Origin: Agarophyton chilense
Lineage: Eukaryota > Rhodophyta > Florideophyceae > Gracilariales > Gracilariaceae
Direction: 5' to 3'
DNA length: 64,000 nucleotides
Assembly: GCA_030374765.1 (NCBI GenBank)
Contig: JARGXX010000088.1
Coordinates: forward strand, 1,860,001-1,924,000
Shown one piece after another: positions 1 to 56,036 of this stretch. The translations under genes were made by a program, and so were the position numbers. A model generated the notes under the pieces. The model had not been told where the DNA came from and did no database searches. It worked only from the letters and a program-made list of their open reading frames with translations. How positions within the stretch are numbered: the first letter of the stretch is position 1; each line of letters opens with the position of its first letter.

Positions 1-633
1 ATCCGAATAATCATCAAGGATCTCTTGTTCCTCTTCTTCAAAAGATGGTGAATGGGTCTCCATGTAGAAGCAAGGTATCTCTTCATCGATTTCGCCTTGG
101 GTTTCGCCCAGTGTTTTGAGTCGCGATAGCGCGTCAGCTTGGACATTGGCCAATCCCTTCTTATAATTCACTTCGAAATCGAATTCAGAAAGGCGTAAGC
201 GCCATCGTGCGAGACGAACAGACGGGTCTGTAATGGACAGTACCCATCGTAGAGACGAATGAACCGTGTTGACGGTAAAACGTTCTTCTTGGAGATACGG
301 TCGAAATGTGGTTAGAGCCCAAACGACTGCAAGGCATTCCTTTTCTGAAACTGAATACTTCTTCTCAGCAGCGTTTAGCGATCTTGACCAGTAACCAATG
401 GGTTTGCGTTCACCATCAGGGAGTGTTTGAAAAAGGGCACACCCTACTTGATACTCGCTAGAGTCAGTATCCACTGAGTATGGCAGGTTGGGGATGGGCA
501 GCGCCAAGACTGGGGCTGTAATAATCTTTGTCTTCAGCGTGTCGAACGCTTCCGCTTCAGCTTGTCTGAATTGTTCCAGCTGTACTGGTTATCCTTTACG
601 CACCTTTGCGTTGAGCGGTGCCGCTATATGCGA
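1..633 (-). pseudogene. Element A RNase H domain (partial, runs off window)
   Basis: Translation of the minus strand gives the RT thumb-to-RNase H part of a Ty3/gypsy polyprotein: a TDSSEYQVGCAL start of the RNase H fold, then KPIGYWSRSLN, EKKYSVSEKECLA and the RLARWRLRLSEFDFEVNYK block with the ADALSRL end. These are the diagnostic blocks of the Ty3/gypsy RNase H (RT_RNaseH). Two in-frame TAA codons, at about 630 and 585, separate it from the RT segment; each lies where the family has an ordinary residue, so they look like point nonsense mutations. The frame is open to the window edge. Confidence 0.85.
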
Positions 634-46211: not shown

Positions 46212-47195
46212 ATGAAACCAGACTCTCCTGAAGCGCCACCGTGCGCGACTACGGAGGCAACGAGCATTGCGGAATATAAATTTCGGCCGATATCCTCACC
46301 TGCACTCGTTGTTCTCTCTAGTCTATGCTTCACCCTGATGAACACCATCAGTCGTAACATCACATACCAGCATCATATCTCATCTTCAGTGGTAACCGTT
46401 TCTCGCGGCAGCTTCCAGCTCTTACTTTCTTCACTTCTCATTTCCAAATTGTCAGTTCCGGATACTTCCGGATCCCAAAAGTCACTTCTTGTTTTGAGAG
46501 CGTTGCTAGGAGGAGCAGCATCTTACTGCCGTTTCATATGCCTCTCTAGACTGAAAGTTGCCCTAGCAAGTGCCCTTTTAGCTACGACGCCTGTTTTTGC
46601 TATAGTGCTCGGTCTAATATTCTTACATCGCCCAGTGCTCCGCAGTGATATACTTTCCATCTTCTTCTGTTGCTCCGGAGCTACTCTCATTACGTATGAT
46701 TCGATAACAGGCCAATCTGAAGGACGAGTGTCCGCCACGCCCATCATTGCCGGTATTGGATCAGCGGCTCTGACGGCGTCAAGTTACGTGGTAGTGCGCG
46801 TTATGGGAACAAAAGTGCACTTCATCTTAAACGTTTTTGTCACAAGCATAGCAAATATTCTGCTTCCAATTGCTACAGTGGGAATTCGCAAACAAAGAGC
46901 ACCCTTAGTTTTACACTTCTTCCGAGAAGAGATTAAGCGGATTGACGACTGGTGGATATATTGTCGCCTTGGTTTGGTTGGAGTGCTTGGCTTCGGCGGT
47001 GCGTCCTGCCTCAACCACGCGTTGCAATCCATGGCCCCATCTAGAGCAGCCACGATTCGCACCATGGATATTCCCTTGAACACCATTGCAGCTTTCGTAA
47101 TTCTCGCAGAGCTTCCGTCGTCTTCATATCAGGTTTTCGGCGGCGTCCTGGTCGCTCTTGGAGCATATACGAGCGCGATGAACAAGACCATATAA
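46212..47195 (+). CDS. EamA/DMT-family membrane transporter (SLC35G-like)
   Basis: A 327-residue protein with about ten hydrophobic segments in two five-helix halves, the EamA drug/metabolite-transporter fold. The first half has the SRGSFQLLLSS region and RFICLSRLKVALASALLATTPVFAIVLGLIF, with the Pro/Ala-rich end of helix 4. The second half repeats this as MAPSRAATIRTMDIPLNTIAAFVILAE near the C-terminus. Such proteins exchange small metabolites at plasma membrane or endomembranes; the substrate is not predictable. The ATG at 46212 is the first in frame, 127 bases from the Harbinger end, so the promoter must lie in or beside the transposon. Its stop is only 10 bp from that of the convergent NADKc-like gene. 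There is no intron. Confidence 0.85.
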   Translation: MKPDSPEAPPCATTEATSIAEYKFRPISSPALVVLSSLCFTLMNTISRNITYQHHISSSVVTVSRGSFQLLLSSLLISKLSVPDTSGSQKSLLVLRALLGGAASYCRFICLSRLKVALASALLATTPVFAIVLGLIFLHRPVLRSDILSIFFCCSGATLITYDSITGQSEGRVSATPIIAGIGSAALTASSYVVVRVMGTKVHFILNVFVTSIANILLPIATVGIRKQRAPLVLHFFREEIKRIDDWWIYCRLGLVGVLGFGGASCLNHALQSMAPSRAATIRTMDIPLNTIAAFVILAELPSSSYQVFGGVLVALGAYTSAMNKTI

Positions 47196-47205
47196 GAAAT
47201 ATTGA

Positions 47206-49362
47206 TTATGACACAATAACGTTGGCTTGATACAATTCCGAGACGCATCTCGCTTTGGTGTTTAGGAACTTCTTGCGCAGAAACCTATTGTAAGCGTCTT
47301 CATGCCTGATCACAAATCCACGCAGGCCTCTCGAGGAATGGATATTGGATTGAGGGTTTTTGAAGAGTAGCCCAGACTTGATAGCAATCAGCTGATCCGA
47401 GCTGGTAGGAACACAGTCTTCAGTGTCTGCTTGAAGCGTGGTGTCGAACAAATATGCCGAGTCTACCCAGCCAATATATTTTTCAAACTGCTTGGAGAAG
47501 AGTGCGTGAGAGTTCAACTGACTGGAAACTGGGACGCTTCTGCCTGTGGTCATCCTACGAATAATTCCGCGCATAACGGCTATTTCAGGGTCGGTAGTGA
47601 CACCCACAAGCTCAACGCGATAGGGGGCGACTGGTTTTGGTCTCTTCTTAGAGCGCACCCAGTAGATTTCGCTGGAGTCGCCATTCTCATTCTCGATATA
47701 CCCAGGGCCACGTTCATATTCATAGTCCGGGTCACGGAGCATATCGATGGTCTGTTTGGCAAATTCACACCATGACATAGTTCCGTCGAAGACGAGATCT
47801 CTTCTGGTGTTGACAGCTTGCAAGAAAAGCTGTTCCGCGGCGTCCATTGAATCCTTGTGAACTATTCGAGACGCAAGAGGGGTTACGCTCTGAAGGACTT
47901 GGAAGAGTGGATCACTGAGCTTGAATGCGTCTGCCTCAACCACGACGACATTAGCACCAAACTGTTTCCAAAAAGTGGTTTCAGAAATCATGCCAAAGAC
48001 AGTGGTCTTTCCGGCGCCCATTCCTCCTCCTAGCAAAATGCACAGCGGAGATTCTCCGCCAGCAGTCTCATCGTGAGAAGTGACTGAAAGCCCATCACCA
48101 CTGGTGCCGGCGCCATGAATGGCTTCATCAATCTTGGAGTGCAACACCTCTGACCTCTCAGACACAAGTGCATCGAGCTGGTCAATTCCCTGTCGCCTGA
48201 GCATGGACTTCCACTGTGAGTGGGCACGACGTGGGGAAGTGAGCTCGAGAAATTCCTCCTCCGGCTCGGTCGCAGAGGGGAGCTCGTTTTGAAACATGTG
48301 GCCGTTAGCGAAGGCCATAAGATTGACAAGATTCATCTCGCGGCGTAGCTTGGGGAATTCGACAAAATTGGTGTAGTCATCAAAGCGAAGGAGGGTTGGA
48401 TAGGAAGTAACGTTGTACTGGTTCTTGAAGTCTGGAGACTTGGGGCCGTTGAGAGTGACGCAAATGATTCTGGAGCCCACGGTGCGCGCCATCTCCTCGA
48501 AGACGGGTCTGACGGCCTTGCAGACGGAGCAAAAATGGGCGTACACGAAGAGCACGATGGGCATGTGGTTCTCATGCAAGGACATGAGCAAAATTGGGTC
48601 GACATCAGGAACGTGCGAGGCGTTGGAGAGGTTTTGGCGCAATTCATCCAGTTTGGTGTTCTGCAGACGCAGATGAGTGAGGCAGCTGGCGTTGGCGTTG
48701 ACGAAGAGCGATACATTGTCCCAGCGATTGGCAAAGTAAGTGCGGGCGGCGTCGTGCACGCTGCAAGTGAAGAGACGGCGCGCCTCTTGGATGGACTTGT
48801 CGGAGGCATCGGCTATGGAGCGCGAGAAGGAATCAATGTGGTTGCTCACGAAGTGCATGGACAAGTGCGAGTCGAAGCGGAAGAGAAAGACATTTGCGGC
48901 AAACTTGGTGCGGTCGGTGCGCAGACGGGAGGAGAGGTGCGGGTAACGGTGGGAAAAGTAAAGCGAGAAATACTCGCCAAAGGACACAACGGCGTGGTGT
49001 AGCTTCATGTCTGTGCAGCGCTGCGCAGAAGCAGGGCGGCGCGGGGCTCCAGCGGGGGCGGGGGCGGACGCGGCGAGCAAGACGCGGGCGCGCGGACGAG
49101 CGCGCGGGCGGGCGCACGGGAAGAGCGGCTGTGGCTGTGACGTTGGTGCGGCGCGGGCGAATTGCGACAGACGTCGCGACGCGACGTGGAAAGGGGGAGA
49201 GGCACGGACGACGTTTAAGTAGGCGCGTGGCATGCGGTGCAGTGCTGCCAATGGCACTCGCGCGTTGTGTCGCACCTCGCTGCGTTGTTGTTTCTCGCGA
49301 AGAAACGCGTCGTCGAGGGGCTTGCGTGTGACGCGCGCGCTGTTTCTCCGCGGCGCACTCAT
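47206..49362 (-). CDS. Thioredoxin-like domain fused to NADKc-like (zeta-toxin-fold) kinase
   Basis: A 718-residue intron-free frame from ATG 49362. Residues 1-115 are Arg/Ala-rich without acidic clusters, like an organelle-targeting peptide; a later ATG (49236, MPRAYLNVV) is possible. Residues about 260-355 form a thioredoxin-like fold: IVLFVYAHFCSVCKAVRPVFEEMA with C278-x2-C281 and the cis-Pro block VTSYPTLLRF. Residues about 438-650 are a P-loop kinase. Walker A is GGGMGAGKTT (445-454), followed by NVVVVEADAFK, DAAEQLFLQAVNTRRDLVFDGTMSW and PYRVELVGVTTDPEIAVMRGIIRRMTTGR. These blocks match plant NADKc (Arabidopsis At1g04280 type), the calmodulin-dependent NAD kinase with a zeta-toxin-like domain, so NADP synthesis is the best guess. 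The added thioredoxin part is not known to me in plant NADKc. A plain zeta-toxin kinase is the alternative. It converges on the transporter gene. Confidence 0.8.
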   Translation of the reverse strand: MSAPRRNSARVTRKPLDDAFLREKQQRSEVRHNARVPLAALHRMPRAYLNVVRASPPFHVASRRLSQFARAAPTSQPQPLFPCARPRARPRARVLLAASAPAPAGAPRRPASAQRCTDMKLHHAVVSFGEYFSLYFSHRYPHLSSRLRTDRTKFAANVFLFRFDSHLSMHFVSNHIDSFSRSIADASDKSIQEARRLFTCSVHDAARTYFANRWDNVSLFVNANASCLTHLRLQNTKLDELRQNLSNASHVPDVDPILLMSLHENHMPIVLFVYAHFCSVCKAVRPVFEEMARTVGSRIICVTLNGPKSPDFKNQYNVTSYPTLLRFDDYTNFVEFPKLRREMNLVNLMAFANGHMFQNELPSATEPEEEFLELTSPRRAHSQWKSMLRRQGIDQLDALVSERSEVLHSKIDEAIHGAGTSGDGLSVTSHDETAGGESPLCILLGGGMGAGKTTVFGMISETTFWKQFGANVVVVEADAFKLSDPLFQVLQSVTPLASRIVHKDSMDAAEQLFLQAVNTRRDLVFDGTMSWCEFAKQTIDMLRDPDYEYERGPGYIENENGDSSEIYWVRSKKRPKPVAPYRVELVGVTTDPEIAVMRGIIRRMTTGRSVPVSSQLNSHALFSKQFEKYIGWVDSAYLFDTTLQADTEDCVPTSSDQLIAIKSGLLFKNPQSNIHSSRGLRGFVIRHEDAYNRFLRKKFLNTKARCVSELYQANVIVS

Positions 49363-50631: not shown

Positions 50632-53600
50632 CTATATCACTTCCTTGAGAGGATCCCCGTATATCACAACAGAGCTGTCTCGACACCCTATCGCAAAAAG
50701 GCTTGAATTTTGTTGAAATGATATGCTTGTGACAGGGCGTATGGGAGAGCTCAAAGGAAACAATCCGCTGCCTGATGTTGGCTGTCCGAACATCATGTTT
50801 TCCATAGTTCTGTCCGGTCCGAAAATCTTCACACACTTCCCAGTGGACCCAGTTGCCACATATCTTCCAGATGGGTGCACTTCCATCGCAGTTACACAAT
50901 TCGTATGGGCTCGTATTCTAGCCATCTCTGCTGTCTGCGATGGTGCGGAGGAAGCTAGGCTCCGACCATTCCATCTAGGATCCCAGAAAACAAGCTCTCC
51001 ACCAATATCTGCAGCAACCACTACATCTCTGTTGGAACTATGCTTTCCTTGAATACATGTACCAACAGATATTATTGGGTACCGCTGTTCCCCAAACTTG
51101 TGGAAACCAAAAGTTTCACGGCTGTGGGCTGCCGTTTCGCGAGTATCAATGACACTAATCGACCCATCGGAAGACCCGACTACAATTATTTTCGGATGTT
51201 TCGCATTCCATATGCTCAAAGCGGTAGGCCATGAACGTTTTTGCACAGATAACCCTTTCCATACGCAGCGTTCGGAGAACAAATCCCACAATCTCACTAC
51301 TTCATTTTCGCATCCTCCTGCAGCCAAGTACGATGAGCTGCAATCAAACGAAAGGGAAAGACCATTTCCAGATTGCTGAATCGCATCGGAAAAAACATCT
51401 GGCGCAGAAGTGGGCTCAATCCCAACGTTCAAAGTTGATCCGTCCCAAGAACCTCCAAGGCTTGGCATTTGAGACAAATCTGGACCAGAATACTTAGCTT
51501 CGCGTGTTGTTCCAACGGTACTCCAGAAGGACTTCCCGGAAGCCTGAAAAGTGCCCATGATGCGATACTTCCGGCCTTGCACATCAGACTTGAAGACTGC
51601 AGCTCTGCCATCATACGCTCCCGCCAGAATTATAGCAGATCTACTGTTCGGCACTTCATCACCTGATGACTCCGACCCAGAATTGTTCAAACAGAGAACT
51701 GTACTAATACCCACCTCTGGGGTCTCTGGAGGGGACGGAATACCAAATGATCCTTTGCATAATCCGTTCTCAACATCATATACCCCAACAGAACCCATAC
51801 TATCACCCGTTGCCAGGAGTTTGTAGTCTCCCACCTCTTTGTCGCAGGAAAGAAATGCCATTGTTGTTACTGCTCCTCCACCTGCGCCCATCATATACAC
51901 GCCAAGTTCACGAACGGTACTGAAATCAATCTCATTGACAACTCTCGAATCAGATGAACTTCCATCCGCAGACTTTGAACCTGATTTCGACTGTTCTTCC
52001 CTCGCTCGACGCCGCCGACAGAGCTTCTCCCACATAGTTATTCGCCGTGGTTGTGCTTTCTCCTCATGTACGCAGTCGAGTGTCGCTATATCACACTGTA
52101 CTCGATTGATAAGAGCACAACTCCATTCGAAAAGTGACAGCGTTGCGTTCCCGGCGTCCGATGAGAACATTCTAGGACGTTCTCTTCCAGAACCCGTGCG
52201 GCTAAGGACCTGGCTTCCATTTGTTGCTCTTTGTTTTCCACCGTCTTCGGTTCGAATGTGTCCTCCCACACTAGAGTCAGCAGGTTTTTGCCGCGGGGAC
52301 AAGGATTCCAAAGAGTTGAGAATCTGGTAGGAGTGGCTCCTTCTCGGTGGACGGGGTGGTGACTTGGCGGCGGAAACACTGCTTCTATCACCGTTGCGCG
52401 ATGGATTGTGAACGTTTGCAGATGCCGCAGAATTTGGAGATATTCCAAGCTGTTGAGATATGTTGCGCATTATTGTTTCAATACCCTTGACCACTTGCAG
52501 ATGTGATTTCTGTTGAGGACTACCAACTTGTGCTGCGTCGTTGATATTGCTCGTGTTTCGGCCGTAGAATCGGAGATCGCTACCAGAGCCCGATGGACTC
52601 GGCATGAGACTAGCGCTGTTTGTTCTTGGAAACCTAGTCACTTTTGGTATCCGAGGTGTCGCGTTGAGGTCGAAACTGCGTCCTCGTGTTCCTCGGACAT
52701 GGATTCTTCCGCTCTTGGTATGGTCCGTTTCCCTTCCCACTCGACCTTGCAGCTCAGAACGCTGAGTTTCCATTCTCGGCAGACCGATTGCCTCGCTTCG
52801 GTCAATAGCTACAGTTGCTGTGTTCTTCGGAAACAGAGGGGGTGACCCAGTACCATGATCGCTCGCCAGCCCCGTCGAAAAGCGTGGAGGCCGTGAATTC
52901 CGCTGTGTTGAACACCATTCATCTCTTTCTAATTGATTGAAAAGATTGACCGAGCCCCGTTCAGGCGTCTGTTCGAGTACTTCACGCGTACGTGATTTAT
53001 ACGAAGTTGAGCTCCTCCCGGGATATGAGTTAGGGGAGGTGCCTGCCTTCTCAGCCCCCTGCTCTGCTGATGAATCACGAGGAATGGTGATATCTTGAAG
53101 CTGGTCATATATGAGATCAACACTTTCCCTGGCGATAGCTGCAACAACTGGATGGGAATCGTAGGCCAGTTCCGAAAGCGATATCCACATCAACGCGTAC
53201 ACATTCTCGCATTGGCTTGCAGTCGAGCTGGATGACGAAGCACTAGATCTCACAACATCAACACCATCGACATCTGCGGAATAAGCTGCTCGGAGAAAGC
53301 AGTTATGCCTCAACTTTACAGCCTTCGATAAAGCTGCTGAAATCTCGCGCCGAACCAGTGTACTGCCCTCGTTGTCTAGATTCAAAGCTATTCTTCTTCC
53401 AATTAGAAGAAGTGCTGCCTGCTCTGGAGGCTTGAAATCGCTAAAGGGTGGAAGGTTCCTTTCTGTGGTTTCCGAGTCTTCAGCTTGTGCCATCTCTTGA
53501 GGACTGTTTTCCATCCACTGGTTGTGATTGGAACGCTGTGGAGGCAATTTGTACATAGATGTTGGCAGATCTCTGTCGGGGACATTTTCTTCGACAGATT

Positions 53601-56036
53601 GGTTCAATCTCTGGTTCTCAGTAGGCAGAAGCAACTGTGAATTCCTGCTGTCCCTGTGAAACGTTCTTTCTGCATCGCTGGGCAAATCTCCAAAAGTAGA
53701 GTTCATGATTATTGAAAGCGCGAAGGTCGCTGCTGCCCTCACGTCCGGTGCAGCATCTTCCGAAGCGAGTCGGCCCAGATGGGAAGTAAATCTGGACCAT
53801 GACAAAAGTTGAGAAATAATATCTCGATTGCTGTGCAGTATCACCTCCGTAAGACACAAGCAAGCCCACCTCCGCACGAACGAATCAAGGTGGTCTAGAC
53901 GTTCTAGACAAAGTTCAATTATCTTACACTCTCGGAGACGATCGGCGTATCGAACGGAAATTATCGACAAGATATAAAATGCCATGGAAATGTATACAGG
54001 TTTTGGCTCCAGTTCCCCGTTTTGTGGTTTGGCCACAAATTGTAAGAAATACATGAACCTATCTTTCTCCACAAGATCCGAACAAACAGAACCATCAAGT
54101 GCCAAAATTTTGCCCCATATGAACACCAGTTCCTGTCGCACAATATTGGACGGATGTTGAAGAAGACGCAAAACGTACGGAAACATGCCAATGGAAAGGG
54201 TGAGATCAACCGCATCAGCGCCAGTCTGGACAAACCGAGAGAGCAACTGAAGGGTGCGCAAGCGATCGGTTGGACTAAGCAAGCTATGCAATGTCATCGG
54301 GACCTGTTCAGGTGGACCGCGGTTCTTCGGTCCCTGATCAAGCCATATTTCAAATGAGCCCAACTGATGTTGAAAGAACGGATTGTGTTGATAACGATAA
54401 GTTGGAGAAGTATTGGCAGGCGGCTGAACCGGCGGAATATCCGCGTAGGACGTGCGAGGAGCATGACGGCGATCAATGTAAATCGGCCTCGTGCGATGAG
54501 GGTCATGGCTGGCAGATGAAACATTTTGTGATGGTGATTGCATATCAACCCCGGCACGCACAATTGATGAAGAGGACGACGACGATGAATTCATGGCGCG
54601 ATAGTTTTGGGGGACTTTGCTTTGATCCATATCGGCAATCATACTTGGCAACTGCACGAGAATATTTTCCATTGCAAGTTCAAACCATTGCCAAAGAGGA
54701 TGGTTATGCGTATCAGGCAAAGCAGGAGAAGACGCCGGCGTGCATCTATGAAAATGCATGATTCGATTAGCTAGCAAGAAGTTTCTCATTAGACTTGCCA
54801 CCATGAGGTCGCGACGATACAACTTATTAAAAAGAGTTCTTGGCAACACGTTCCAAGCAATTGTATCAGTAATGGCGGTAAGAATCCATTTAAGTTCTCC
54901 CAAAGGCGTGTTTCTTGCATCGAGAGTGCCTGGAATTTCGTCCAGCATTTCATATGTAACACCGTCGACAAGAGTTCTTCTCCAGAACCATCGCAAGGCC
55001 GTCTTAATTGGCGTTGTGAGGCAAGCGGTGAAAAGATCGGCAGGTAAGGCTGCGGTAGTAGGAAGCGTTTCACCCTCGGAACACGAAGCAAGAAAAATTG
55101 AATTAAGATGAGGAGGTGGAGAGTTATCGCTGCGTTCCCGTCTTCTGGCTTCACATTCTCTATCAAACTGATCCATGAGTTTGTCGAAATGTCGCATGAC
55201 TGTTCCAGCAGAATTGGTATCAAAAATGTAAACAGCAGGACTACCCACAACCTCATGCAAGTCATACAAGTTGAATGGGATGTACTGAGTGTAGTTATGG
55301 TTGAAGAACCAAAACTCTCCGTTTGGAGTCGGTCTGGGAACGCCATGACCATTATAATAAAACAGCATACGATCATCTTTCGCGTAACGTCGAAAAGAGA
55401 GGCATAACCGCTTCATTTCAATAACTGTAGGATCTGGAGCGACTCTGAAACGGGCTCTATGCTGCAAGCTCTCGAATTGCCTCTTCAAAGTAGTCGAAAT
55501 TTGCTGCATTGAGTCTGTTGGATTCTGCAAGTTTGGTTCTGTCCATGCTTCAAGACGCGCACATGGACTGAGACGCGATATATTCGGAGGGTCCACCCCG
55601 ATATTTAGACAGAGAATCAATACGCCGTTCACCGTCCTGATTCGGTCTGTGAACCGCCATGGTTTGAGGGCTCGGATAACAGGGGAGCGATATAGAGGTA
55701 GTAAAGATTGCGCCGTGGATAGTGGCCTACTTGCTGTTGGTGGTGTGTGCTCAGTTTGTGGTTGCGGCGCAGAGAGCTGTTGAGCCGGAATGTCATCTTC
55801 CTGTGGAGGGGGTGGAACAGCATAAGAAGGTCAGGACAAAAGCGGTTTAGAGAGCTAAGATAGAGCACAGGAAAGATGCGAGGGTATGGGAAACATACCT
55901 GCAGGACGAGAAGATGATTAGTGGTGGATGAATAGAGGTTACGCGAAGGCGTGGATTGGATACGGGATGATGACGATGGTTGGGGGAATGTTGAGGAACT
56001 TGAGGTTGTGTCGGAAGCGGAAGATGGGATAGACAT
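50632..56036 (-). CDS. Raptor (regulatory-associated protein of TOR), one intron
   Basis: Scaffold of TOR complex 1, which presents substrates to the TOR kinase. The model joins exon 1 (56036-55899, 46 residues, ATG) to exon 2 (55800-50632) across a 98-bp intron, giving about 1,768 residues. The raptor N-terminal conserved domain (about residues 95-255) reads LKPWRFTDRIRTVNGVLILC, CLNIGVDPP, FYYNGHGVPRPTPNGEFWFF, YTQYIPFNLYDL and GSPAVYIFDTNSAG. HEAT-like repeats follow (ILPLLLRLL-type blocks such as GMFPYVLRLLQHPSNIVRQELVFIWGKILALD). A Ser/Pro/Arg-rich linker of several hundred residues comes next, and a WD40 propeller from about residue 1330 (LATGDSMGSVGVYD, AAGGCENEVVRLWDLF, VATGSTGKCVKIFG). 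In animal and plant Raptor the caspase-like site keeps His (NGHG) and Cys (DCSNAG); here His is kept but Cys is Thr (FDTNSAG). The long linker is unusual and probably phosphorylated. Confidence 0.93.
55801..55898 (-). other. Raptor intron
   Basis: On the minus strand the sequence after CTGCAG is GTATGT (donor at 55898). The 3' end is a pyrimidine-rich run finishing CCACAG (acceptor at 55801), with CTGAC as a likely branch site about 40 bases upstream. The intron is phase 0, and its removal joins the ATG exon to the frame that runs into the conserved Raptor start. Confidence 0.8.

Follow-up and report, generated by a model that had tools for sequence, protein, structure and literature searches.

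A thioredoxin-like domain and a zeta-toxin-fold kinase on one reading frame in the red alga Agarophyton chilense

The window analyzed here, 64,000 nucleotides of contig JARGXX010000088.1 from the Agarophyton chilense assembly GCA_030374765.1 (positions 1,860,001 to 1,924,000), codes on its reverse strand for a protein in which a thioredoxin-like domain precedes a P-loop kinase of the zeta-toxin fold (Table 1). The two folds lie in one uninterrupted frame and the kinase has its catalytic residues intact; this is a real fusion in the DNA. Tentatively, and with a confidence a little short of even, we posit that it specifies an active zeta-fold kinase with an adjoining thiol-responsive domain, which would most likely convert NAD+ to NADP+ under redox control in cis.

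Table 1. Features of the fusion gene, with one canonical NAD kinase of the same genome. Coordinates are window positions unless otherwise indicated.
Feature	Position	Strand	Basis
Whole open reading frame, 718 aa + stop	47206..49362	-	Single uninterrupted frame of 718 codons
Residues 1-118, rich in Arg, Pro and Ala, net charge +19; either a putative transit peptide or, if left untranslated, 5' UTR	49009..49362	-	GC 62-79%, codon scores, composition
Residues 119-247, predicted helical region, no assigned family	48622..49008	-	AlphaFold helices, pLDDT mostly 40-70, about 83 near the end
Thioredoxin-fold domain, residues 248-358	48289..48621	-	PF00085, 2.1e-10; pLDDT; Foldseek matches to thioredoxins
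CSVC, Cys278 and Cys281	48520..48531	-	Motif scan, alignment
cis-Pro322	48397..48399	-	Pro in 29/29 aligned thioredoxins
Calmodulin-type 1-5-10 motif WKSMLRRQGI, residues 384-393, helix before kinase	48184..48213	-	Chance level
Zeta-toxin-fold P-loop kinase with two N-terminal helices, residues 373-718	47209..48246	-	PF06414, 1.6e-21 on residues 371-718 alone; model and structure matches
Walker A GGGMGAGKTT, Lys452	48001..48030	-	Lys in 36/36 relatives, forced by the search pattern
VVVEADAFK, presumed catalytic base Asp478	47920..47946	-	Asp in 36/36; role by analogy with AvrRxo1 D193
DLVFDGTMSW, Asp526-Gly-Thr528, Ser530	47770..47799	-	Thr528 in 36/36, partly forced in viral rows
Beta insert, about residues 548-580	47623..47721	-	35 letters between the Y547 and R582 columns vs 2-7 in 36 rows
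RGIIRRMTTGRSVP, Arg602 and Arg608 pair	47530..47571	-	Both Arg in 36/36
L022, canonical NAD kinase, 748 codons	644-2890 of L022, C88 (the window's contig) near 687842	-	Pfam

Domain architecture of the fusion protein

Against the 718-residue protein, Pfam recovers Thioredoxin (PF00085) at residues 263–345 (2.1e-10; 41 bits versus a cut-off of 23.5) and Zeta_toxin (PF06414) at 435–549 (1.3e-20; 74.2 bits versus 22.3), and the NAD kinase domain PF01513 is absent among the ten families that it reports up to an E-value of 10. Upstream, 25 sense codons separate the preceding stop from the first ATG. The original prediction had read from the letters a CxxC thioredoxin-like domain (C278/C281, with the cis-Pro at VTSYPT) and, on the same frame, a zeta-toxin-fold P-loop kinase with a characteristic series of motifs. 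Both parts are borne out, the former by the frame, the two cysteines and the Pfam match, and the latter by the concordance of Pfam, structural model and catalytic residues. Each named motif occurs once and in the stated order: CSVC (278–281), VTSYPT (318–323), GGGMGAGKTT (445–454), VVVEADAFK (473–481), DLVFDGTMSW (522–531) and PYRVELVGV (580–588). AlphaFold assigns high confidence to the core of the thioredoxin domain and to the greater part of the kinase. As regards a location on the outer mitochondrial membrane like that of NADKc, the protein shows no clear transmembrane stretch, its best 19-residue hydropathy value being 1.48 and falling within the thioredoxin core, and its N-terminus is uncertain. 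Across the 79.8 Mb assembly the fusion has a single full-length match, namely its own gene, the seven other matches being weak and in the thioredoxin part.

The thioredoxin-like domain

When the thioredoxin half was modeled alone with an alignment of 29 thioredoxin relatives, the predicted local distance difference test score (pLDDT), averaged over ten residues, was 85–95 for positions 249–328 and 65–78 for 329–370. Foldseek matches this model to thioredoxins, including 2puk and 1fb0 of thioredoxin m, with template modeling scores of 0.88–0.90 by target length for these two. Cys278, Cys281 and Pro322 are the same as in all 29 relatives, though these were fetched with a CxxC-centered pattern and agreement near that motif is partly built in. 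The domain thus shares the fold, the CxxC motif and the cis-Pro with thioredoxin m and the domains of the PDI type, and differs from them in having F-C-S-V-C rather than W-C-G-P-C, a Phe at the usual Asp site and a fused kinase. It also misses the NCBIfam thioredoxin equivalog TIGR01068 (40.4 bits versus a cut-off of 96.8). We read it as a thioredoxin-like domain which could form a disulfide but is no classical thioredoxin.

The zeta-fold kinase domain

The kinase model matches the structures of zeta, PezT and AvrRxo1 in structure searches, and in VIA-align the AvrRxo1 match reaches back to residue 373. Although 24 thioredoxin rows were misplaced over the kinase in the alignment used for the full model, this part was still modeled well. 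Lys452, Asp478, Thr528, Arg602 and Arg608 are invariant in all 36 relatives aligned (14 bacterial rows from GTDB and 22 viral rows), the Walker A letters being forced by the search pattern and Thr528 partly so for the viral rows. Because all five are kept, the kinase looks active. With the zeta and PezT toxin kinases (PF06414) it shares the fold, the Walker A motif, the catalytic Asp, the Thr of the DGT motif and the Arg pair.

Three features set it apart from these toxins: a beta insert, a substitution at position 530 and a separate position in the tree. The insert, of about 33 residues, is lacking in all 36 relatives and is modeled as strands with a pLDDT of 66–72 in its middle. Position 530, two residues after the Thr of the [DE]GT motif, is a Ser here and an Arg in 13 of the 14 GTDB rows and in one of the 22 viral rows. 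This Arg presumably contributes to the UDP-N-acetylglucosamine (UDP-GlcNAc) pocket of the classical zeta toxins, and its replacement by Ser530 therefore makes such a pocket less likely. AvrRxo1 is not known to carry a thioredoxin domain. It differs further in being a bacterial effector, and in the structure matches its identity to the fusion kinase is 16%.

Relatives and origin of the kinase

In the tree the fusion kinase lies apart from the zetas of toxin–antitoxin systems, and its nearest sequences are uncharacterized phage protein domains. A single clade uniting it with all viral rows is rejected (approximately unbiased test, p-AU 2.9e-56), a result that may be caused by two viral rows, L119 and L128, that fall among the toxin–antitoxin zetas. 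We suggest that the kinase belongs to a eukaryotic lineage distinct from the latter. We reject a bacterial contaminant or a recent transfer from a toxin–antitoxin system in view of a phycobilisome-linker match on the same contig, the remoteness of the prokaryotic and viral relatives retrieved and the tree.

Single-sequence scans of GTDB and IMG/VR with the kinase gave no confirmed close relative. Profile scans of the two collections retrieved 65 and 43 loci, with best segments 34% and 30% identical, respectively, the exceptions being a pair of GTDB fragments, each roughly 50 residues long, at 44–45%. Seven records in a phage collection match at 26–32% identity; 587 plasmid records match, at 28–34% among the 20 listed and below 60% in the remainder. 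Another short match, of 44% identity, came from the search of eight genomes or records described below. Within the algal genome, PF06414 scores above its cut-off at three places besides the fusion gene, none of them a clear zeta kinase, other matches being below the cut-off: the first is SRP54, which scores 245 bits for its own family versus 31.5 for zeta, and to judge by eye the other two resemble a P-loop protein of the KTI12 type and an ABC transporter.

Separately, the closest row by tree path, L093 from IMG/VR (record G007), is a zeta-like kinase domain within a phage frame of 4212 codons.

One gene or two

Coding potential was scored with a table of 12,266 codons from other frames of the same genome, namely window frames of at least 300 codons and the longest frame in each of 17 own-genome loci, one of the loci being plastid and none of the source frames verified as a gene. 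From the 40-codon window at residues 301–340 to the C-terminus, the annotated frame ranks top of the six in every window, the interdomain stretch included. From window 141–180 to window 281–320, where the DNA is rich in G and C at third codon positions (GC3), an antisense frame slightly outscores it; residues from about 141 to 320 are read as coding because thioredoxin homology, not codon scores, supports the frame there. Two helices, at 377–390 and 396–416, are confidently placed in the full model (ten-residue mean pLDDT 81–92 over 379–418), and hence the apparent linker is mostly the start of the kinase. The kinase had been placed about 90 residues beyond the thioredoxin domain; the intervening stretch is indeed coding, but most of it is kinase rather than linker.

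Over the first 46% of the gene GC3 is 0.74, and over the remainder it is 0.55, the biggest such drop among 28 frames (the fusion gene itself included, and four of them from plasmids or phages). This is the signal expected if two genes had been read by chance as one or brought together by an assembly join, an explanation we regard as very improbable. When 100 codons are compared with the next 100, the drop of 0.21 in the fusion gene is unremarkable (L019 reaches 0.30 and L017 0.21), the frame stays open and protein-like across a junction that is largely taken up by kinase helices, and it sits inside a contig of 3.1 Mb. Further, total GC peaks at 0.74 at 49000–49199 and declines on both sides, reaching 0.48 by 49600, as expected of a GC-rich 5' end; we read the profile in this way, although two parts joined long ago would give the same picture. 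We expect the gene to yield a single transcript.

Substrate and mode of regulation

Under the favored reading, the C-terminal half would, like plant NADKc, make NADP+ by phosphorylating NAD+, with the preceding thioredoxin-like domain acting on it in cis. Through its Cys278/Cys281 pair this domain would sense the local thiol state, with thioredoxin reductase, glutathione or a partner thioredoxin as the source, and might pass it on either by docking onto the kinase or through exchange with one of the kinase cysteines. Candidate partners are Cys441, which directly precedes the P-loop, and Cys532, which adjoins the DGT motif. As an outcome, NADP production could be either raised or lowered. The assignment to the plant NADKc type is a reasonable conjecture: it draws on the DGT-x-SW and PYR-x-ELVGV-like motifs of plant proteins of this type, which serve as a lead only. 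The hypothesis of redox control, likewise reasonable, is drawn from the domain order. The Arabidopsis calmodulin-dependent NAD kinase also has a zeta-fold kinase in its C-terminal half, with apparently similar motifs. It differs in what governs it: a review, PMC12178909, describes NADKc as calmodulin-regulated and located on the outer mitochondrial membrane, whereas the algal protein has a thioredoxin-fold domain before the kinase. Another review, PMC6676473, attributes this activity to a P-loop ATPase, and reports negative regulation of NADP synthesis by chloroplast ferredoxin/thioredoxin-m.

Several observations weigh against this reading. The active site of the thioredoxin-like domain has diverged: Phe277 replaces the Trp that precedes CxxC in 29/29 relatives, Ser-Val stands between the cysteines where relatives have Gly (26/29) and Pro (29/29; Val280 here), Phe272 occupies a site where 17 of the 29 carry Asp, and Lys338 one with Gly in 28. 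As a consequence, normal disulfide exchange may fail. The zeta fold itself leaves the substrate undecided, because UDP-GlcNAc is the substrate of zeta and PezT, while AvrRxo1 acts on the 3' position of NAD to give 3'-NADP (PMC5491322). The genome holds two canonical NAD kinases (PF01513), L022 and L023, separate from the fusion gene, which would accordingly be an extra enzyme and not the basic NADP supply. The 1-5-10 motif at residues 384–393 might allow calmodulin control, and no relative with the same fusion was found in the genomes searched.

That last result is a weak negative from searches that covered no eukaryote. Six of eight genomes or records matched the fusion, with none of the ten rows covering both domains; 89 of 377 Myxococcota genomes matched, with all listed rows in the thioredoxin part (query positions 8–156, the zeta match beginning at about 211). 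One entry, G002, went unmatched in both even though it holds a zeta-like locus (L076), which shows that the searches detected the kinase part poorly. Likewise, among the literature matches listed, no paper on a thioredoxin–zeta fusion was evident by title or abstract opening.

The same body of evidence bears on two rival accounts. The kinase might act on a substrate other than NAD, such as a nucleotide or sugar nucleotide, or on the 3'-OH of NAD to yield 3'-NADP, which would make it a redox-linked kinase but no NADP producer; we give this an appreciable chance, if one well under even. The spread of substrates and sites among zeta-fold enzymes (UDP-GlcNAc for zeta, the NAD 3'-OH for AvrRxo1), the uncharacterized phage domains that are its closest tree neighbors and the two canonical NAD kinases that already cover NADP supply all lend it weight. 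The Ser at position 530, set against the Arg of nearly all bacterial rows, disfavors a UDP-GlcNAc pocket insofar as that Arg contributes to the pocket of the toxins, and the apparent likeness to NADKc-type motifs counts against the rival as a whole. Somewhat less probable, to our minds, is that the thioredoxin-like domain is a docking, folding or degenerate module and that calmodulin, bound at 384–393, controls the kinase as in plants. The divergence of the thioredoxin active site would suit it, as would the basic motif in the helix immediately before the kinase, but both cysteines and the cis-Pro are retained, and the motif, whose pattern follows our own definition, is at chance level: at least one turns up in 23.5% of 1000 shuffles, and a scan for four calmodulin motif types gave one in the fusion protein versus a shuffled mean of 1.9. 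Thus, of two distinctions drawn in the original prediction, that between this kinase and the bacterial zeta toxins stands (through the insert, Ser530 and the tree), whereas the opposition of calmodulin control in plants to redox control here is unsettled on account of this motif.

Implications

In its widest form, the proposal is that of a eukaryotic zeta-fold NAD kinase carrying its own thioredoxin as a thiol sensor, with NADP supply set by redox state and the regulator swapped relative to the calmodulin of plants; in this full form we hold it to be less likely than not. If true, the zeta-type NAD kinase would predate land plants, calmodulin in the latter and the thioredoxin domain in the red alga representing a swap of regulator. 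It would also extend the zeta-fold metabolic kinases past plants and bacterial effectors. It is still an open question how photosynthetic cells match the size of their NADP pool to redox demand: the review PMC6676473 has ferredoxin/thioredoxin signaling acting directly or indirectly on the chloroplast NADK2 by a mechanism still sought. A sensor and a kinase on one chain would let the link between redox state and NADP be tested in vitro.

The N-terminal regions

A targeting peptide had been proposed at the N-terminus and is doubtful. The composition of residues 1–118 suits a transit peptide (22 Arg, 16 Pro and a stretch, 44–117, free of acidic residues), but their coding signal is weak, all frames of the underlying DNA scoring negative with a minimum over 41–120, and ATG codons at 44 and 119 offer M44 and M119 as alternative starts. 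Over residues 1–60 the annotated frame comes out ahead of the other five, with scores similar to those of residues 141–300. Part of residues 1–118 may hence be untranslated. For the helical region that follows (119–247), the sole Pfam match has an E-value of 0.19 and is below the cut-off.

Canonical NAD kinases and genomic context

L022 combines an adenylate kinase domain with a following NAD kinase (ADK, 1.3e-27; NAD_kinase, 3.8e-16; NAD_kinase_C, 6.8e-37), and L023 has the NAD kinase domain alone. This pair fits PMC4072752, which reports two NAD kinase genes (one set of subfamily II, the other IV) for most aquatic algae, rhodophytes included, and describes adenylate kinase–NADK fusions for subfamily II. 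The canonical enzymes, those of the adenylate kinase-fusion type included, resemble the fusion protein in their presumed product and as a precedent for extra N-terminal domains (same source), and differ in belonging to another family, PF01513 being unmatched in the fusion protein.

Of the genes flanking the fusion, the two matched by Pfam code for an EamA-type transporter and Raptor, neither of them an antitoxin; small nearby frames fell outside that scan. The transporter gene (46212–47195, forward strand) and the fusion gene are convergent, with their ends 10 bases apart, and the 3' ends of the two transcripts probably overlap. The Raptor gene (50632–55632, reverse strand) is one long frame with Raptor_N (1.1e-52), HEAT and WD40 matches.

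On another contig, C39 (227,691 bases), genes for PsaL (7.3e-60) and a thioredoxin lie about 700 bases apart, together with seven of the 13 phycobilisome-linker matches in the genome; the remaining six are on other contigs, one of them that of the window. We read C39 as a plastid contig of a red alga and the window as nuclear. As phycobilisome-linker matches recur on C39 at a distance of 185,684 bases, it probably exceeds one circle. Finally, a further thioredoxin-containing locus, L003, codes for a 553-residue protein (250–1911 of the locus, reverse strand) with an Hsp70-interacting HipN start, a thioredoxin domain (1.4e-25) and then TPR repeats, a domain order that seems unusual.
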